NCBI GenBank assembly: GCA_030550455.1
Contig: JAUQPH010000001.1
Span: forward strand, 252,259-316,258
From: Thermoproteota archaeon
GTDB taxonomy: Archaea; Thermoproteota; Thermoprotei_A; Sulfolobales; NBVN01
Reading direction: 5' to 3'
DNA: 64,000 bases
How positions within the stretch are numbered: position 1 is the stretch's first letter; each line of letters begins with the position of its first letter. Under the pieces are notes generated by a model. The model was not told where the DNA came from and did no database searches. It was given only the letters and a program-made list of their open reading frames with translations. The position numbers and the translations under genes are program-made. Positions 3,294 to 59,949 of this stretch are shown piece after piece.

Positions 3294-3821
3294 CTACTTC
3301 TCTATTACGCTCACTGAGAAGGAGTAGACCGCTATTTTAGTCACTCTCTCCTCCTTTAAGTTTACTAGAACTACTGCGATGCTATTCTCTTTTCGCAGTA
3401 TTACTAGAGATTCATCAGCTCTGAGACTAACCGAGCCATCAGCCTCTACGTATGCCTTAATGACGGGCTTTATGCCCGTTATATTATAGCCATCCTCGAG
3501 GAGTTTAGATACGTCAGTATCTTCTGTAGCTATCTTGAGAACTTTCTCTCTGTACTCCTCACTAACCTCAACTCTCGGTCCAAGAGCTTTCGCGAGCTTT
3601 ATTCTCTCTTGTAGTAACCTCAATCTGAACAGGTTAGCTAGTTTACTAGTTAGGTTAGCGTTTACCTGGGGCTTAATTCCGCTAAACACATCTACAGGCG
3701 GTCCTCCGAAAAATCCTCTTTCGTTAGCATTCTTGGCGTAGACTAGTACAGCACCTGTAGCCAGCAAAGCCGCTAGAGCTAGAGCAACAGCTGAAACCAG
3801 CGCTACAGACCCTCTGTTCAC
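3294..3821 (-). CDS. Membrane-anchored extracytoplasmic protein, unknown
   Basis: A 175-residue protein. Residues about 6-29 form one strong hydrophobic helix after MNRGS, so the rest is probably outside the cell, held by an uncleaved anchor or released by a signal peptidase. The exported part has a charged helical stretch (residues about 55-115) followed by beta-rich sequence to the C terminus. There are no cysteines or catalytic motifs that I recognise. It sits alone, with a T-tract after its stop and a 350-base gap before the divergent membrane operon. Confidence 0.7.
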   Translation of the reverse strand: MNRGSVALVSAVALALAALLATGAVLVYAKNANERGFFGGPPVDVFSGIKPQVNANLTSKLANLFRLRLLQERIKLAKALGPRVEVSEEYREKVLKIATEDTDVSKLLEDGYNITGIKPVIKAYVEADGSVSLRADESLVILRKENSIAVVLVNLKEERVTKIAVYSFSVSVIEK

Positions 3822-4170: not shown

Positions 4171-5064
4171 GTGACGTATCTGAAGATATCTTTAGGTGTA
4201 ATACTAGCTGTAGCTATTCTAGTACTTATATGTGTTGTGTCTGGTATCAGCTGGTTGTTGGGTATTCAGCTCTACTCAACGCGTGCTCCTTTCTCAGCCT
4301 TCCTAATACTCCTTGTCTTGCTGATAGCAGGCTACGTCTTCATGACTGAAGCTAAGTCAGGTAAAGAATTTCCCGTGAGGAAGATACCTGCTTTCGACGC
4401 CATTGAGGAAGCCGTAGCTAGATCAGTCGAGATGGGTAGACCAGTGCACATGACGTTCGGCTTTGGGACCATATCGTCCGCTATGGCACCTCAGTTTATT
4501 GCCGGACTCGGAGTGCTATCGCATGTTGCTAGACTGTGCGGTAAGTATGGAGCAAAGCTGATCGCTACTCTAGGTGTACCTGAGGCAATAGCTACAACAG
4601 AGGAGATCGTTAGGGAGGGCTACTATTCCTCCGGTAGACCAGAGCTGTACGACCCTACTTACAACGTGAGGTACTTAACAGATCAGCAGTTTGCTTACGC
4701 TTCAGCTGTACAAGCGACACTTATTAGAGAAAATGTTGGAGCCAACATTGTCGTCGGCCCCTTCTATGCCGAGTCCCTGATATTCATGGAGGCAGGAAAC
4801 ATGGTTAACGCTTTCCAGATAGCTGGAACAGCTAGAGAAACCCAGATTCCGTTCTTTGTTCTAGTAGCAGACTACTCGTTCATAGGTGAGGAAATATTTG
4901 CCGCTGGAGCGCTGGCTTCAGGAGATAGGGAAACACTAGCCTCGATAAGAGGGCAGGACGTAGGTAAGCTCTTATCAATAATACTGATCGTTCTCGGGAT
5001 ACTCCTACTCTTAGGAGGCTTTAAGCTAGTAGATTCTCTCAACTGGGTATGGAAGGTGGGGTGA
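4171..5064 (+). CDS. Membrane protein with soluble domain (DUF6754-like), operon gene 1
   Basis: A 297-residue protein with two N-terminal membrane helices (about 6-27 and 40-60), a soluble alpha/beta domain (about 70-262) and one C-terminal helix (about 266-287). The soluble part contains glycine-rich strand-turn-helix segments (HMTFGFGTISS, IVVGPFYAESL) and resembles a family that I recall as DUF6754, function unknown. The GTG start is set by an immediate stop in the alternative ATG frame. It is the first of five genes spaced 4, -8, -4 and 2 bases apart. Gene 3 has the same plan (helix, soluble domain, helix), so the two may be distant paralogues forming a hetero-assembly. Confidence 0.75.
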   Translation: MTYLKISLGVILAVAILVLICVVSGISWLLGIQLYSTRAPFSAFLILLVLLIAGYVFMTEAKSGKEFPVRKIPAFDAIEEAVARSVEMGRPVHMTFGFGTISSAMAPQFIAGLGVLSHVARLCGKYGAKLIATLGVPEAIATTEEIVREGYYSSGRPELYDPTYNVRYLTDQQFAYASAVQATLIRENVGANIVVGPFYAESLIFMEAGNMVNAFQIAGTARETQIPFFVLVADYSFIGEEIFAAGALASGDRETLASIRGQDVGKLLSIILIVLGILLLLGGFKLVDSLNWVWKVG

Positions 5065-5068
5065 GAAC

Positions 5069-5758
5069 ATGAGTTTAGTCGTTAGAAGACACATCCCCCA
5101 GCTCATCGTCACTGTCATAATCATACTGACCGTAGCTTTCTACTACCTCTACATCAATAAAGGTATAGCGGAGTCCTTCACTACGGCCGACAAGGCCCTA
5201 AGTGACTGGGCCGTAATAATCACGAGCTTCGCACTGATAGTCGGAGGAATAGATATATTAAGGTTTCACTTAGTGAGGTTAAGGAAGGAAGGACTAAAAC
5301 AAGCACCATTCAGTGCGGTAACTATAGGGCTACTTGTAGTTATGGTGTTCTTCGCTCTGCATGGCTGGTTCCTAAGCTACGCTGACCCCAAGGCAGGTAT
5401 TACGATAACTACACAACCCCAGTTCAGATGGCTATATCTCAACGTTTATGCACCTGCAGATGCCGCTATGTACTCAATACTAGTGTTCTACATAGCTTCA
5501 GCCTCGTATAGAGCGTTTAGGGTCAGAAACCCGATGGCTTTACTGCTCCTCGTTACAGCACTCATCGTGATCTTTGGAAATACCACTATTGGCGGGCTGA
5601 TCTGGCCAGGCTTCTTACCCCTAAGAGACTGGATAATGACAGTTCCAAACACAGCCGCTTTCAGACCGATTACGATAGGTGCCGGTCTAGGAACCATAAT
5701 CTTAGGCCTGAGGTTGCTAACATGGAGGGAGGTAAGCTGGTTGGGGAGGCGTGAGTAA
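5069..5758 (+). CDS. Polytopic membrane protein, operon gene 2
   Basis: A 229-residue integral membrane protein with about six helices (roughly 10-29, 46-66, 80-103, 132-150, 155-178, 196-215). A short polar stretch (HLVRLRKEGLKQ) follows helix 2 and probably faces the cytoplasm. There are no transporter signatures, conserved charged pairs or cysteine motifs that I can identify. It starts 4 bases after gene 1 and its end overlaps gene 3 by 8 bases, so it is made together with the other members and probably contributes the membrane core of a complex. Confidence 0.7.
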   Translation: MSLVVRRHIPQLIVTVIIILTVAFYYLYINKGIAESFTTADKALSDWAVIITSFALIVGGIDILRFHLVRLRKEGLKQAPFSAVTIGLLVVMVFFALHGWFLSYADPKAGITITTQPQFRWLYLNVYAPADAAMYSILVFYIASASYRAFRVRNPMALLLLVTALIVIFGNTTIGGLIWPGFLPLRDWIMTVPNTAAFRPITIGAGLGTIILGLRLLTWREVSWLGRRE

Positions 5759-6611
5759 AATGAGTGGACTGAGTTCTCTAGAAAAAGTCTTGGGATCTAA
5801 AGAACTCCTATACACTCTTCTATTACTTTCAGTTATCCTACCGATACTACACCCCCTGGGAATCCCAGTCGAGATCTCTCAGAGAACTCGAGACGTGTAT
5901 GGCTATATCGAAAAGAATTTGCGTTCAGGTTGCCGTGTATATATAGAGGTATACTACGAGGTTGCTGCCAGAGGAGAGCTGGAGCCAAACTTGATAGCCT
6001 TAACAAAGCACCTCTTCGACAAGGGGTGCAAGATAGTTTACGGCTCACTAGGAGCTTTCGGTGTAGTAGCTTTCTCCCTCTTTAAGTCTATGGCTTCAGA
6101 CTTATTCGAAGGCAAAGAGTACGGTAGGGACTACGTATATCTTGGCTACATAGCTGGTGGAGAGGCGGCATCAGCTTCCCTAGCTAAGAGCATTAAGGGT
6201 ACGATTAGCGTCGACAACTACGGCAACAGATTAGAAGACCTTCCACTAATGAGAGAAGTAGATAAAGCAACAGATTTCGACTTAGTGATCATAGTCTCGT
6301 CCGGTACTGACGTATTTTCCTACTACGTTAGGCAGTGGCATACACCTTATGGAGTACCTCTTTTGTTTGCGGCTCTTAGTGTCATAGCTCCCTCAATAGA
6401 GCCATTTGTGGGAGCTAAGCAGGCCGTAGGAATGCTTGTTGGTCAGAGGTCTGCAGCCGAGTACGAGGTTCTAGTAGGGCGGCTCGGACTAGGTATAGCG
6501 TCCATGGACGCGCAAAGCACGTCTCACATGCTAATTGTAGCGTTCATCATTATAGGGAACGCCATATACTGGGGCAAGAGGGTTTCATCCAAGAAGGGTG
6601 GTTCAAAATGA
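5751..6611 (+). CDS. Membrane-anchored alpha/beta protein, operon gene 3
   Basis: A 286-residue protein: N-terminal hydrophobic helix (about 18-36), a long soluble domain (about 45-250) and a C-terminal helix (about 258-277) with a basic tail. The soluble part has alternating strands and helices with short glycine turns (YGSLGAFGVV, LGYIAGGEAA, VIIVSSGTDVF) as in a Rossmann-type fold. No nucleotide-binding loop matches a known family. The topology copies gene 1, and a stretch near residue 225 (VGAKQAVGMLVGQR) may pack on the membrane. It overlaps gene 2 by 8 bases and gene 4 by 4 bases. Confidence 0.7.
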   Translation: MSKMSGLSSLEKVLGSKELLYTLLLLSVILPILHPLGIPVEISQRTRDVYGYIEKNLRSGCRVYIEVYYEVAARGELEPNLIALTKHLFDKGCKIVYGSLGAFGVVAFSLFKSMASDLFEGKEYGRDYVYLGYIAGGEAASASLAKSIKGTISVDNYGNRLEDLPLMREVDKATDFDLVIIVSSGTDVFSYYVRQWHTPYGVPLLFAALSVIAPSIEPFVGAKQAVGMLVGQRSAAEYEVLVGRLGLGIASMDAQSTSHMLIVAFIIIGNAIYWGKRVSSKKGGSK

Positions 6612-7336
6612 TTAGCTGGGACTTGTTCGGGGCCTGGCTCTGCGCTGCCATGGTGGTCTGGATCTACAGCTTTGTCTACAGGGATAACGTGTTCTATAAG
6701 GTAGCTGAGCACATGTTCGTGGGTACAGCCGCCGGCTACTCGATAGCTTTAGCTCTAGATAGCTTGAATAGAGTACTCATTTCACCGGCTGTTCGAAGCC
6801 CTCAAACCTTCTTGACTACCTCGTGGCACTACCTAATCCCAGCTATACTAGGTGTGCTGATGTTCGCTAAGTACTCCAGAAAGTACTACTGGCTAGCTAG
6901 ATACGCAGTTGCTATCAACATAGCCGTAGGTACCGGTCTAGCTCTTAGAACCGTGCCTATAGCAAACGTGGTTAGACAGATCACCGCTACTATAGTCCCC
7001 CTCTGGGGTTCTGATCCGGTTAAAGTCTTTAACAATTGGGTCTTGGTATTGATAACGCTGGGTGGATTAACCTACTTCCTCTTTACGATATTTCCAAGGA
7101 GAGTAGAGGGCGCTAGAGCGTCTCCTCAGCACTTAGTCTACAGAGCTCTCTACTACATCGGTATTTACGGAATGATGGTCGGCTTTGGAGCACTGTTCGC
7201 TAATACTATAATGACTAGAGTAGGGTTCCTGATATCTATTTACCTAATATACATACAACCACAGGCGTGGGCCTCTATTATAGCAGCAGTCCTAGCCGCT
7301 ATAGCGATAATCGTAGGTATCCTGAGAAAGAAGTAA
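6608..7336 (+). CDS. Polytopic membrane protein, operon gene 4
   Basis: A 242-residue integral membrane protein with about seven helices from residue 5 to residue 239 and a short basic C terminus (LRKK). The ATG overlaps the stop of gene 3 (ATGA type), a sign of translational coupling. The loop after helix 5 is rich in basic residues (FPRRVEGARAS), suggesting a cytoplasmic face. I do not recognise the family. Together with gene 2 it gives the operon about 13 membrane helices, consistent with the integral part of a complex. Confidence 0.7.
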   Translation: MISWDLFGAWLCAAMVVWIYSFVYRDNVFYKVAEHMFVGTAAGYSIALALDSLNRVLISPAVRSPQTFLTTSWHYLIPAILGVLMFAKYSRKYYWLARYAVAINIAVGTGLALRTVPIANVVRQITATIVPLWGSDPVKVFNNWVLVLITLGGLTYFLFTIFPRRVEGARASPQHLVYRALYYIGIYGMMVGFGALFANTIMTRVGFLISIYLIYIQPQAWASIIAAVLAAIAIIVGILRKK

Positions 7337-7338
7337 TC

Positions 7339-7596
7339 ATGTCGGAGACTATCAGCGAGGACGAGCTACTGGAGAAGCTAGCGAGAAAGATAGTTGACTC
7401 GAAACTCGATACAATAGTTATTTTTTTACTTACTTCATTTGGTCCTATGGGTCGAGTTTGGGCTCAGCTTGCTAGACTCTATCTACAACCACTCCTGATC
7501 TTGCTTGGGGACTACGGAGAGTTCTTCCTCAAAGTTCTTCAAGACCCGGAGAGAGTAGAAAAGCTCGTAAGTAAGATTGAGGAACTAAGTCAATAA
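7339..7596 (+). CDS. Small amphipathic protein, operon gene 5
   Basis: I chose ATG 7339, two bases after the gene 4 stop; a longer frame would lie inside gene 4. The 85-residue product has an acidic helical start (SETISEDELLEKLARK), a hydrophobic middle (about 27-57) that could be a membrane-associated helix pair, and a charged C-terminal helix (PERVEKLVSKIEEL). It could be a peripheral subunit or assembly factor of the complex encoded by the four preceding genes. The family is not recognised. Confidence 0.65.
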   Translation: MSETISEDELLEKLARKIVDSKLDTIVIFLLTSFGPMGRVWAQLARLYLQPLLILLGDYGEFFLKVLQDPERVEKLVSKIEELSQ

Positions 7597-55359: not shown

Positions 55360-56604
55360 GTGGTGTTAGGTTTGGTAAATCACGAGAGGTATGTCTTATT
55401 ACCCGACAGGTTATTCGATGGTAAGGGAAACTTTCTAAGCAAGCCAGCAGTTGTCGTAGAGGGAAAGCGCATAGTGGATATAACAACTAGGGGCTCGGTT
55501 GACGTCGGGGAACAGTCTAAGGTGATAGAGTTGAAGGGTGTCACCCTTCTGCCTGGTCTCGTAGATGCTCACGTACACTTCACGGGCTTGAGAACCTATA
55601 ATCCGGCGGAAATAGCTGTAGTTCCACAAGACCTTAGAGTACTTAGAGCTGCTCAAGATGCTCAGAAGGCTCTGCTATCTGGCTTCACTACTCTAAGAGA
55701 CTGCGGTGGAACCATAGCCTTATCTCTAAGGAGAGCCATAGCTGAGGGGACCGTTCCTGGTCCCCGCATCCTAGCTTCCGGAAGACCTATATGTCAGACT
55801 GGTGGGCACTGTGACACACACTACATGCCACTCGAAGACGTTATTAAGAGGGGCTCCGCCCTACTGTGCGATGGTCCCTGGGAGTGCAGGAAAGCTGCTA
55901 GAATAGCACTTAGAGACGGAGCGGACTTCATCAAGGTCATGACATCAGGTGGCGTGGGGTCCGAAAAAGACGACCCTAGGCACCCACAGATGAGTGTAGA
56001 AGAAGTTAAAGCTGTTGCTGAAGAAGCTCATAGAGTCGGTAAGAAGGTCGCTTCACACGCTCAAGGAGCTGAAGGCGTTAAGATAGCTATCTTAGGAGGT
56101 GTCGACACTATCGAGCACGGCTACTTCCTAGATGAGGAGTCTATAGAGCTCATGAAGGAGCGAGGAGTTTGCTACGTACCGACCCTATGCCTCGTAGAGG
56201 TCTACAGAAAGACTCTGGAAAACCCTCCTCCAGGGATCCCCGAGTGGAGGCTGAAGAAGCAGGAGGAGTGCATCGAGTACATGCCACAAAGCTTTAGAGC
56301 GGCTTATAGAGCTGGAGTAAAGATAGCTACTGGAACAGACTACTACGGCCCCCCACTTAGGGCTTTCGGTAGTCACGCAGACGAACCTATAGTCATGGTA
56401 AAGTACGGCATGAATCCTGTTGACGCACTTACTGCATCAACTAAAAACGCTGCGGAGTGCTTGGGATTAAGCAATGTAGGCATAGTCGATAAGGGCATGG
56501 TAGCAGACTTAGTGGGCGTGTTGGGAGACCCTGAAACAGACATTGAGACTCTAAGGAATGTGGTCTTCGTTATGAAGGAGGGGTTTGTCGTCCTCAGAAG
56601 ATGA
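55360..56604 (+). CDS. Metal-dependent amidohydrolase (imidazolonepropionase/prolidase-like)
   Basis: A 414-residue TIM-barrel hydrolase. Metal ligands: DAHVHF (near residue 70), the bridging lysine in DFIKVMTSGGVGSEKDDP, HAQGAEGV, EHGYF and the aspartate of GTDYYGPP. Close to the archaeal Xaa-Pro dipeptidase / Sgx9260-type amidohydrolases, which cleave amide bonds such as those of N-acyl or proline peptides. The natural substrate is not evident. Start GTG 55360. The next gene begins 5 bases after the stop. Confidence 0.9.
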   Translation: MVLGLVNHERYVLLPDRLFDGKGNFLSKPAVVVEGKRIVDITTRGSVDVGEQSKVIELKGVTLLPGLVDAHVHFTGLRTYNPAEIAVVPQDLRVLRAAQDAQKALLSGFTTLRDCGGTIALSLRRAIAEGTVPGPRILASGRPICQTGGHCDTHYMPLEDVIKRGSALLCDGPWECRKAARIALRDGADFIKVMTSGGVGSEKDDPRHPQMSVEEVKAVAEEAHRVGKKVASHAQGAEGVKIAILGGVDTIEHGYFLDEESIELMKERGVCYVPTLCLVEVYRKTLENPPPGIPEWRLKKQEECIEYMPQSFRAAYRAGVKIATGTDYYGPPLRAFGSHADEPIVMVKYGMNPVDALTASTKNAAECLGLSNVGIVDKGMVADLVGVLGDPETDIETLRNVVFVMKEGFVVLRR

Positions 56605-56609
56605 TTTAA

Positions 56610-56966
56610 ATGCCTTATAGGAGAGTTAAAGTACTGCGAGTAGAAGTTGAAAGTGGAGATTTAGTCCTAGTCAGCTTTACTGGAAGAGACAGAGTACCTA
56701 CTTCTTCTATACGTAGAGTAGGTACTCTGAGGAAATACAGCAGAATTCTCGTTGCTCTCGTTATAGCTATGGCAGCTGTTTCACTTTACACGCAGGATCC
56801 CTTCCATACAGTACTCACGCTAATAATGCTGGGAGTTACACTAGCTACCAAGGAGGAAGTACTAATCGTAGATATAGTAGATGGAGACACGATCGAAGTT
56901 AGTGCTAAAGATAGACAGTCCGTTAAGAAAGCTGTTGAAGAACTAAGAAAACTACTTACTCACTAA
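56610..56966 (+). CDS. Small two-helix membrane protein
   Basis: A 118-residue protein: a beta-rich start (residues 1-38), two membrane helices (about 46-62 and 67-82), then a beta/alpha end (EEVLIVDIVDGDTIEVSAKD) with a charged C-terminal helix. The ends probably face the cytoplasm. It begins 5 bases after the amidohydrolase gene, in one operon, and its end overlaps the convergent 56956-58098 gene by 11 bases. Not recognised. Confidence 0.65.
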   Translation: MPYRRVKVLRVEVESGDLVLVSFTGRDRVPTSSIRRVGTLRKYSRILVALVIAMAAVSLYTQDPFHTVLTLIMLGVTLATKEEVLIVDIVDGDTIEVSAKDRQSVKKAVEELRKLLTH

Positions 56967-58098
56967 TTATTTCAACGTTAGCTCGAGGAATAAGCACTTC
57001 CCTTCCGTCTTGGAGACGCACTCTAACCACTCTCACCGGGGACTCTGTCTCGATTTTGTGTAGCTCCACTGGAAGCTCGATAACGGTTCCTATCTCACCG
57101 AAATATGGGTACCTTATGATTCTAACAGTGCTACCAACCCTCATCTTACCCTCACCCAGGGGCTCTAAAGCACCTGCGAAGCTCTCTTCGTCTCTAGGAA
57201 TTATTACCTCCGGTCTTATTACGCCGGCTCTAACCTGCGTAGCCCCGTTGATCGCTGCCTCTCTCCCTTCGTTTTCCTTAAATATATCGAACGCTCTTTT
57301 AGACATAGGTAGCTTTCCGAAGCCTTCCGTGAGAACTAGCGTGAATCCTATATTTTCCCTTCCCGTAATAGCTACCCCAATTCTATAACCTAAGACTTTC
57401 TCTAAGTCAGTGATCTTAGCACCTCCAACCACTATACCGGCAACACCGACTTTTCTAGCTTTTTCGAGTGCTTCGTAAGTTATGAGAGATCCTCCAACAA
57501 TTATCTTACCAGCGTGGTGTTCACCTATTTGGTCTGGACCCACTACGTCCTGGTTACTAGAGGAGACGAGCTCTATAACTCCATGCCTCTCTCCACCGAA
57601 CCCTATGATTCCCTGAATGAATGCTGCCGGAGTCCCGATCGTAACAGATTCGCCTGGAACTACCTTTAGAACCGTTCCACGGATATATGCTCTCAACTCT
57701 ATTACGCGTGGAGGAGCCCTTATAGTGAGATGTCCCGTGATCTCACTGAATCCCTCAACAACGCCTTCAACTGGTGATTCGACAGATTTTTTCAGAAGAC
57801 CTAGGAAGGCCGTGTAGCTGGCGAGATTAGTGCCCTTAGAAACAGTGTCTCCTACTTTAACTCTCAAGTACCTAACTACTTCTTCGGGTTCTACTCCCAA
57901 AAGCTCTGCTACCTTAACTATGTACGGAGGTCCCTCCAGGTAACACCTGCCGACGATCGTCTCAAAGTCAACTTTTTCTCCTTGGTTTACTAGGGTTTCC
58001 CCTCTAATCGGCAGAGCTCTCTCCCTGGTTATGTAGGTGAGCGGTGTAACAGCAAGACCAGGGGTATACGCAAAGCTTTCCTCACTCACTGCTAACAC
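56956..58098 (-). CDS. Partner of GlmL-like ATPase: biotinyl/RnfC-like and KOW-like domains
   Basis: A 380-residue soluble protein. The first half (about 45-150) has hammerhead-like beta segments (KVGDTVSKGTNLASY, ESPVEGVVEGFSEITGH, GTVLKVVPGESVTIG) like RnfC or lipoyl domains. The centre has glycine-rich Rossmann-like strands (GKIIVGGSLITYEAL, VAGIVVGGAKITDLE). The C-terminal end (about 310-380) resembles a KOW/SH3 barrel (VRIIRYPYFGEIGTV). Start GTG 58098 follows the GlmL stop directly, so the two are co-translated. Function unknown; a stable partner of the ATPase is likely. Confidence 0.75.
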   Translation of the reverse strand: MLAVSEESFAYTPGLAVTPLTYITRERALPIRGETLVNQGEKVDFETIVGRCYLEGPPYIVKVAELLGVEPEEVVRYLRVKVGDTVSKGTNLASYTAFLGLLKKSVESPVEGVVEGFSEITGHLTIRAPPRVIELRAYIRGTVLKVVPGESVTIGTPAAFIQGIIGFGGERHGVIELVSSSNQDVVGPDQIGEHHAGKIIVGGSLITYEALEKARKVGVAGIVVGGAKITDLEKVLGYRIGVAITGRENIGFTLVLTEGFGKLPMSKRAFDIFKENEGREAAINGATQVRAGVIRPEVIIPRDEESFAGALEPLGEGKMRVGSTVRIIRYPYFGEIGTVIELPVELHKIETESPVRVVRVRLQDGREVLIPRANVEIISE

Positions 58099-59949
58099 CT
58101 AACTTAGCTTAGTGAGGAAGTCTCCTGGGTAAAGCTCGAGGGCCTTAAACCACGAGACCAGTAGTTTCCTCCTCTCTCTTGGATCCTGCGGTACGTAAAG
58201 CGGTCTACCTCTTCCATCAATTACTACTCCTACAACTCCACCGCGTACTCTCTTCCTAACTCTTCTGCCGTATCCCTGCCCGAAGTCGAACTTCTTAGTC
58301 GGCTCTACGGTTACAACTACCTCTTTATACTGAGGTATAGGTATTCTCACTACGCTCCCAAAAGTTAGCTCTACCCGCTCTTTCTCTTGCTCAGAATACT
58401 CTATGGTGATATCCGCAACTTTCTCACCGAGAGATCCGACACCTGCAGCAGCTACTAAAGTACCGAGTGGTACGAGGCACTCCTTCTCGAATATCTCGAG
58501 CGCTATCTCTCTATATATCTTCGAGAGCACTCCCAAGTGAGGTATCATGAATACGCTGTCTTGCATTATGTACGTAAACCCTATCGGTTGGAAGGCATCT
58601 GCGAGTATAATCATAGATTGAGCCCTCCTTGGAGCTCTAGAGAGGAGACCCCCGGTGCCTATGATGTAGTCTACTCTCCTCAAGTCTATATAGGTCTCCT
58701 CGGCTTTAACTTCCTCAAATATATCGGATATAGTTCTCTCCCTCTTAACTCCCTTGAGCTCTCTAGCCAAGTACTTGTGGTGGTTGAAAGCCATTCTTAT
58801 GCTTTCGCGGGCTACAGCGTGCTCGACTACGAGGTCCTCTAAGGACATAGGTATAGTTGTAGGTCTGATCATCTTGTTGTAGACTATACCCATTATCTCA
58901 TCGTCTGTGAGGTCGAGTGGTATCCAGCGCTTAACATTCTCTAGACCGGCTTCTTTCAGTACGTTTCCTATGCTATAGCTCATCCCGAGGTTAGCGCTGA
59001 CGGTTCTCAGAAACCTCCCGTCGAAGACTGAATAAACGTTCGTTGTCGCACCACCCATACCTACCCCTATGACGTTGACCTTCTTCATCTCTGCGAAAGT
59101 TCTTATCATGAGCCCTTCGGCAGCTGGCGTCGGCATAATGTCTGTTGAAACGAGCTTCATCAGCTTTTCGTAACCGGGTGCGTGAGCCATAACGTGCTCC
59201 ATGAAGAGCTCTAGAATAGCGTTTCTCGCAGGCTCTACTTTCTCTACTTCTATCTGGGGCCTGATGTTATCTACGATCCTGACATCGAAGAAGTCGTCCG
59301 ATAGTATCCGCTTTATATCTTCTCTAGCGTCCTTATTTCCAGCGTACACCACTGGGAGCCTAAACGTAGCCCCGAATCTCGGCCTAGGCTTAGCTACAGC
59401 TATCACTTCACTCATCTCCAGAACGTGGGTCTTGTCACCTCCATCAGTTCCACCAGCTAGAAGTATCATGTCTGGTCTCAGAAACCTCAAGGTGTTTATT
59501 TTCTCATGTATTTCTCTACCATCGTCTACCGATAGAACGTCCATCACTATGGCTCCAGCACCTAAAGCAGCTCTCTGAGCGCTTTCAGCGGTAATACTCT
59601 TGACAACACCAGCTACAAGCATCTGGAGACCTCCACCAGCACTGCTAGTTGATACATAGACGTCTATACCTACCCTACCACCCCGATAGGGCATGACGAA
59701 CCTGAGTTCTTCGGTTGAGTCATCAAGTATCTTGTGTCCAGTAAGCTCTTCAACCTCTCTCACAGCATTTCTAACCCCCTTAGTAACATCTTCTACAGGC
59801 TTCTCAACTGTCGTTGGCGCCTCGCCACTTGCTAGAAACCTCCACTCACCGTCTATCTTACCGAAGAACCTCGCTTTAGTAGTCGTACTTCCTACATCTG
59901 TTGCGAGAATAAACCTAGGCTCTCTAGCGTAGCTTACTACGTCCATCAC
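58099..59949 (-). CDS. GlmL/MutL-like ATPase (glutamate mutase accessory family)
   Basis: A 616-residue actin/Hsp70-fold ATPase of the MutL/GlmL family, encoded beside adenosylcobalamin-dependent carbon or amine mutases in bacteria, where it is thought to act as a chaperone or reactivase. ATP-binding segments are LATDVGSTTTKARFFG at the start, MILLAGGTDGGDKTHVLEM near residue 165, GVGMGGATTNVYSVFDG near 300 and IIGTGGLLSRAP near 425. No mutase subunit, B12 gene or amino acid fermentation gene is in the window, so its client is unknown. Start GTG 59949 or ATG 59946. Confidence 0.88.
   Translation of the reverse strand: MMDVVSYAREPRFILATDVGSTTTKARFFGKIDGEWRFLASGEAPTTVEKPVEDVTKGVRNAVREVEELTGHKILDDSTEELRFVMPYRGGRVGIDVYVSTSSAGGGLQMLVAGVVKSITAESAQRAALGAGAIVMDVLSVDDGREIHEKINTLRFLRPDMILLAGGTDGGDKTHVLEMSEVIAVAKPRPRFGATFRLPVVYAGNKDAREDIKRILSDDFFDVRIVDNIRPQIEVEKVEPARNAILELFMEHVMAHAPGYEKLMKLVSTDIMPTPAAEGLMIRTFAEMKKVNVIGVGMGGATTNVYSVFDGRFLRTVSANLGMSYSIGNVLKEAGLENVKRWIPLDLTDDEIMGIVYNKMIRPTTIPMSLEDLVVEHAVARESIRMAFNHHKYLARELKGVKRERTISDIFEEVKAEETYIDLRRVDYIIGTGGLLSRAPRRAQSMIILADAFQPIGFTYIMQDSVFMIPHLGVLSKIYREIALEIFEKECLVPLGTLVAAAGVGSLGEKVADITIEYSEQEKERVELTFGSVVRIPIPQYKEVVVTVEPTKKFDFGQGYGRRVRKRVRGGVVGVVIDGRGRPLYVPQDPRERRKLLVSWFKALELYPGDFLTKLS

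Follow-up and report, generated by a model that had tools for sequence, protein, structure and literature searches.

A stretch of 64,000 nucleotides from a Thermoproteota archaeon (contig JAUQPH010000001.1, positions 252,259 to 316,258; i.e., the window) carries five packed genes (g1 to g5; positions 4171 to 7596) that, in our reading, encode a four-subunit membrane cassette (g1 to g4) and one component (g5) of a shared cytoplasmic module, which together would carry out ATP-driven or ATP-gated movement by a logic like that of energy-coupling factor (ECF) transporters. We assign this statement as a whole a probability of about 0.4. The modular architecture within it (i.e., g1-g4 cassettes plus one shared module) is very probable, while transport, which is argued by analogy, is the likeliest function and is proposed tentatively.

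All five genes lie on the forward strand as intact open reading frames (ORFs) with gaps of 4, -8, -4, and 2 bases, in agreement with a preliminary description of the DNA, which had also taken g2 and g4 for polytopic proteins and had pointed to a DUF6754-like resemblance in g1. Both points held: g2 (5069 to 5758) and g4 (6608 to 7336) each have about five transmembrane (TM) segments, and g1 (4171 to 5064; GTG start; 297 amino acids) matched the Pfam family DUF6754 (PF20539) over residues 40 to 282 (E = 1e-70; 238 bits against a gathering cutoff of 27), i.e., it is a full member of a family that has no assigned function and that covers one of the four cassette subunits. The g1 protein of the window contains two N-terminal TM helices (one in most relatives), an alpha/beta domain, and a C-terminal TM helix; g3 (5751 to 6611; GTG start; 286 amino acids) consists of an N-terminal TM helix, an alpha/beta domain, and a C-terminal TM helix; and g5 (7339 to 7596) is a small helical protein of 85 amino acids. 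The mean hydropathy of g5 never exceeds 1.6 in any 19-residue segment, so nothing marks it clearly as a transmembrane protein; it is probably peripheral at the membrane. A search of curated families returned no Pfam or NCBIfam match above the cutoff for g2 to g5, a sequence search of the PDB found no relative of g2, g3, or g4, and none of the members showed homology to a known, unrelated complex. A TATA-like, AT-rich stretch is located approximately 30 bases 5' of the g1 start codon. The five genes are real: their order is kept in the genus and in a sister genus, and g1 to g4 recur in that order across many phyla.

The case for a single complex comes from a set of loci collected by pattern scanning with a g1 alignment across public genomes (79 loci) and by whole-genome searches. 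Genes in these loci are mechanical ORF calls, many of the genomes are metagenome assemblies, and, since g1 served as the query, all co-occurrence given here is conditional on g1, apart from that in the 300-genome sample described below. The loci found with the g1 alignment span archaea (Bathyarchaeota, Methanomethylicota, and Culexarchaeum) and bacteria, i.e., Bacillota (Fermentithermobacillaceae and Symbiobacterium), Zixibacteria, Cloacimonadota, Phycisphaerae, Armatimonadota, WOR-3, Poribacteria, Fermentibacteria, and others. Among the 124 g1 loci with at least 2.6 kb of downstream sequence, 123 contained g1, g2, g3, and g4 on one strand and in this order, which was the order in all 123 complete cassettes (median gaps of 13, 3, and -1 bases); across lineages, g2 was the second gene and g4 the fourth in every complete cassette. 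The pairwise-distance matrices of the four subunits were correlated (r = 0.71 to 0.81). For the four subunit pairs tested, the observed correlation was higher than in any of 500 permutations in which partners were shuffled within genomes; thus, cassettes keep their own partners. Conserved order and coevolution of this kind are the signature of one complex.

Clustering of the neighboring genes revealed three further recurrent families, namely, a MutL/GlmL-like protein of the ASKHA (actin/Hsp70-fold) superfamily, a soluble protein that we named TPGL after its AYTPGL motif, and homologs of g5; small PH-like membrane proteins were also frequent. In the window, the genes for the MutL-like protein (58099 to 59949, reverse strand; 616 amino acids; PF13941) and TPGL (56956 to 58098, reverse strand; 380 amino acids; no curated family) lie 49 kb from the operon, and in the sister species they are near it. 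A frequent bacterial order is PH-like, g5, MutL, TPGL, g1, g2, g3, g4, with the g1-g4 cassette sometimes present in two or three tandem copies, and g5 in bacteria typically adjoins MutL, outside the cassette. Because the bacterial g5 homologs sit with the PH-like, MutL, and TPGL genes, g5 belongs to the shared module. Three loci (L numbers denote individual loci of our set) carry MutL and TPGL as single ORFs of 949 to 993 amino acids (L163, 7322 to 10171; L164, 7047 to 9953; L165, 11844 to 14825), and a fourth fusion has an uncertain start (L166, 1824 to 4964); the carriers include Fermentibacteria, Cloacimonadota, and others. The sequence evidence supports a full system composed of the g1-g4 cassette, g5, the MutL-like ASKHA protein, and TPGL. 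The membrane complex proposed in the preliminary description is thus backed by gene order, coevolution, and co-occurrence, and the conserved neighborhood for which it had suggested a search was found in archaea and in many bacterial phyla. Its boundaries shift, however: the four genes of the cassette stand as proposed, but the operon is not the whole complex, given that the MutL-like protein, TPGL, and often the PH-like gene also belong to it, and g5 is part of the system as a component of the shared module rather than of the membrane cassette.

The MutL-like protein of the window has the ASKHA core of the MutL/GlmL family along the whole PF13941 model (model positions 1 to 450; E = 1e-120; 404 bits; E = 1.7e-121 in a search of its own genome) and carries the motifs DxGSTTTK and GGATT, of a kind that in the ASKHA superfamily generally binds ATP. 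TPGL gave a barrel-sandwich (i.e., biotinyl/lipoyl-like) signal, the fused MutL-TPGL protein gave a weak Biotin_lipoyl match (E = 8.6e-4), and the C terminus of TPGL is KOW-like (Spt5 match; E = 0.0036); beyond this match, there was no other convincing similarity to PDB entries. The likeness to the KOW proteins Spt5 and NusG is limited to this short C-terminal stretch, and TPGL, unlike them, has no RNA polymerase context. The PH-like gene of the window (56610 to 56966, forward strand) is a tentative part of the system and a frequent neighbor of the shared module: its relatives adjoin TPGL or MutL in 7 archaeal loci, a PH-like gene (PHa) is present in 13 mostly bacterial loci, where it usually adjoins g5, and one relative gave a weak bPH_5/DUF6232 match.

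Co-occurrence links the same parts across whole genomes. Among genomes with DUF6754, TPGL was found in 42/42, MutL in 41/42, and g5 in 41/42, while DUF6754 was found in none of the 14 control genomes. When 300 genomes were sampled evenly from the phylum of the window, TPGL and DUF6754 were present in the identical seven, where TPGL was of full length or, in one fragmented genome, almost so, and TPGL was present in none of the other 293; one extra TPGL match (E = 2e-4; 45 residues) and one DUF6754 match below the cutoff were weak. The probability of identical seven-genome sets by chance would be 2.5e-14 for independent genomes, which these are not fully. Of 31 close relatives, only the members of this genus and of one sister genus (seven genomes) contained g1; thus, the presence of the system in the order is patchy. 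Copy numbers differ between the two units: genomes contain 1 to 15 cassettes (the genus of the window contains only one), whereas one copy is the usual number for canonical TPGL and for g5. In Zixibacteria, DUF6754 was found in all 133 genomes searched, most often in five copies, and TPGL was found in 124 of the 133, nearly always in one copy; the absence of TPGL from 7% of these genomes is compatible with incomplete assemblies. In the tandem arrays of Zixibacteria, cassettes fell into groups whose members resembled their counterparts in other genomes more closely than the cassettes next to them in the array; they are therefore old, stable, and presumably specialized paralogs. These patterns support the view that the four cassette genes evolve and are duplicated together, with approximately one canonical module per genome.

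We predicted the orientation of the two soluble domains by the positive-inside rule, counting lysine and arginine residues around the domains of 37 diverse relatives. For g1, the mean counts were 1.4 before and 4.4 after the first TM helix and 1.3 before and 0.8 after the last; for g3, the flank counts were 2.7, 1.1, 1.05, and 3.4. The DUF6754 domain of g1 is thus predicted to be cytoplasmic and the alpha/beta domain of g3 to be extracytoplasmic, i.e., the two domains would face opposite sides of the membrane. Many bacterial g1 proteins have a signal-like start and an additional N-terminal domain that would lie outside; in one case, this domain gave a weak FnIII match. AlphaFold2 models of g1 and g3 were confident (mean pLDDT of 91 and 94, respectively) and had their helices and six strands in one common order. 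Searches of the PDB with these models by Foldseek returned no match at E <= 0.001 (best E of approximately 1.4e-3), and the query-normalized TM-scores were approximately 0.35 or less, values depressed by the use of full-length models with TM helices; a generic Rossmann-like resemblance of both domains may be present. The preliminary description had assigned g1 and g3 one plan and had proposed two related soluble-domain subunits. In the two models, the common plan holds for the order of secondary-structure elements, and our claim is limited to this; sequence homology is not established, as one hhalign comparison was weakly suggestive (P = 5e-4 over 86 columns) and those made with different alignments showed nothing. 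A comparison of g2 and g4 revealed no homology.

On this basis, we propose the following mechanism. An ATP-binding assembly of MutL, TPGL, and g5 would dock on the DUF6754 domain of g1 in the cytoplasm and would serve every cassette of the cell. On the outer side of the membrane, the g3 domain would capture or sense a cassette-specific ligand; g2 and g4 would form the membrane core; and ATP would drive or gate the movement of a solute or membrane component specific to the cassette. ECF transporters are the closest precedent for such logic, in that a single energy module is common to several membrane units of different substrate specificity (PMC3246461, PMC7755397). The likeness is one of logic only. 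Unlike the ECF module, the constant parts here contain no ABC ATPase, the constant partners being the MutL-like protein, TPGL, and g5, and the membrane unit comprises four genes with an alpha/beta domain on each side; a Pfam search found no similarity to S or T components, and an ABC-like cluster is present in 11 loci at no fixed position. If g1 contacts the shared module and g3 contacts cassette-specific ligands, g1 is expected to be the less variable of the two. It was more conserved than g3 in 121 of the 122 to 123 within-genome paralog pairs (21/21, 65/66, and 35/36 in three genomes), which fits docking, short of proof. The stable paralog groups of the tandem arrays likewise fit specialized cassettes.

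Several observations weigh against the proposed mechanism. The conservation of g1 may have causes other than docking, and the data gathered on the cassettes contain no hint of a substrate. In archaeal MutL-like proteins (the window protein and relatives L038 to L043, L051, and L058 to L060), the second phosphate-type motif reads GVG[ML]GGATTN, compared with GVDIGGATTD in the bacterial proteins; the replacement of both acidic residues makes ATP hydrolysis by the archaeal proteins questionable. One module per genome is not universal, because Fermentithermobacillaceae carry extra MutL-like genes paired with longer TPGL-like paralogs. Amidohydrolases were not enriched within 6 kb of cassettes in four genomes (8 observed versus 5.4 expected), so the neighborhood offers no support for transport linked to catabolism. 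A catabolic transporter had been considered because early loci contained genes for peptidases, amidohydrolases, acyl-CoA dehydrogenases, and glycyl-radical enzymes, and it was rejected on this position test; a tally of recurrent neighbors, which used partly hand-picked genes, is not counted here as linkage evidence. Finally, a core function in the envelope or in energy conversion would also be consistent with a system found in every one of the 133 Zixibacteria genomes.

This last point leads to a core envelope or membrane-maintenance machine, e.g., one that handles lipids or cell-surface polymers with paralogous cassettes driven by MutL-TPGL, an alternative that we consider unlikely on balance. 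The presence of DUF6754 in all 133 and of TPGL in 124 of the Zixibacteria genomes, with most often five cassettes, and the ancient, stable paralog groups in their arrays would agree with such a role, as would the position of the cluster in Phycisphaerae directly upstream of genes resembling plsX, fabH, fabD, and fabG (L071, L072, and L135; by inspection only). Lipid-gene neighbors of this kind occur in one lineage only, however, while cassette copies vary from 1 to 15, with a single one kept in the genus of the window, and presence in Thermoproteota is patchy (7/300). The predicted topology, with one anchored domain on each membrane side, could instead suggest a transmembrane sensing or signaling complex in which g3 reads an outside ligand and g1 relays its state to the ASKHA/TPGL module, and a shared cytoplasmic reader with many paralogous receptors would be in keeping with this, as would the extracytoplasmic extension of many bacterial g1 proteins. 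Two polytopic subunits per cassette exceed the needs of a receptor, however, and the recurrent neighbors include no output domain (i.e., kinase, cyclase, or DNA-binding domain), which makes signaling improbable.

An ion-translocating or redox membrane complex distantly akin to Mrp-type antiporters is very improbable: g2 matched Na+/H+ antiporter subunit G weakly (E = 0.004), but its score against NF009313 was 16.9 bits versus a cutoff of 151, and the cassette lacks a constant cofactor-binding partner. The least probable alternative is that the MutL-like protein, with loosely linked membrane genes, serves a B12-dependent mutase as its accessory ATPase (repair chaperone), which would accord with its PF13941 match and with the E values of about 1e-68 against the GlmL and Or-4 models, but its scores of 230, 229, and 161 bits fall below the curated cutoffs of 475 (GlmL, NF040745), 600 (Or-4, NF040744), and 204 (TIGR01319), no mutase gene is among the recurrent neighbors, and MutL tracks DUF6754 in 41 of 42 genomes. 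Assignment to GlmL, Or-4, or TIGR01319 was rejected on these scores and on context. Compared with GlmL and Or-4, the window protein is longer (approximately 616 versus 450 amino acids), is paired or fused with TPGL in its family, and adjoins no mutase gene; as a positive control, a true Or-4 protein in L162, which adjoins OraE, scored 636 bits against the Or-4 model.

Other genes were observed beside the system. A small secreted or anchored protein (3294 to 3821, reverse strand; no family in a Pfam search) is encoded divergently from the operon and adjoins it only in this genus. An amidohydrolase related to Xaa-Pro dipeptidases (55360 to 56604, forward strand; 348 bits, below the 500-bit cutoff) adjoins the PH-like and TPGL genes and is kept in the genus. 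In Bathyarchaeota-type loci, a further small membrane protein without a family adjoins g5 or the cassette (L060, 11557 to 11967; L078, 7472 to 7858; L109, 3883 to 4266; L051, 960 to 1373). The MutL-TPGL fusions of L163 and L166 adjoin a gene resembling histidine ammonia-lyase by sequence inspection. In Fermentibacteria-type loci (L099, L120, L124, and L126; also L098, L111, and L127), inspection showed the cluster flanked on one side by glycine cleavage genes and on the other by TonB-receptor or lipoate-ligase-like genes. The extra MutL and long TPGL-like pairs of Bacillota (L158 to L161, L167, and L168) lie mostly away from any cassette, and the TPGL N-terminal unit is apparently duplicated in these long proteins.

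A search of a library of full-text papers found no mention of DUF6754, PF20539, PF13941, or GlmL-family terms. Six of the seven proteins of the system are without functional annotation, and sequence searches returned no relative of solved structure; the membrane machine is apparently undescribed so far. It may, as a tentative proposal, represent a new class that is universal in one bacterial phylum or more and whose many interchangeable four-subunit membrane units, with an alpha/beta domain on each membrane side, are powered by an ASKHA ATPase, not an ABC ATPase. With its parts, their orientation, and their partners assigned as above, the complex is open to direct experimental tests. When a system of approximately seven genes occurs in archaea, across numerous phyla of bacteria, and in each of the 133 genomes searched of one phylum, it normally signals a basic cell function, and the modular reading, if true, would reveal a new way of coupling a cytoplasmic ASKHA ATPase to the membrane.

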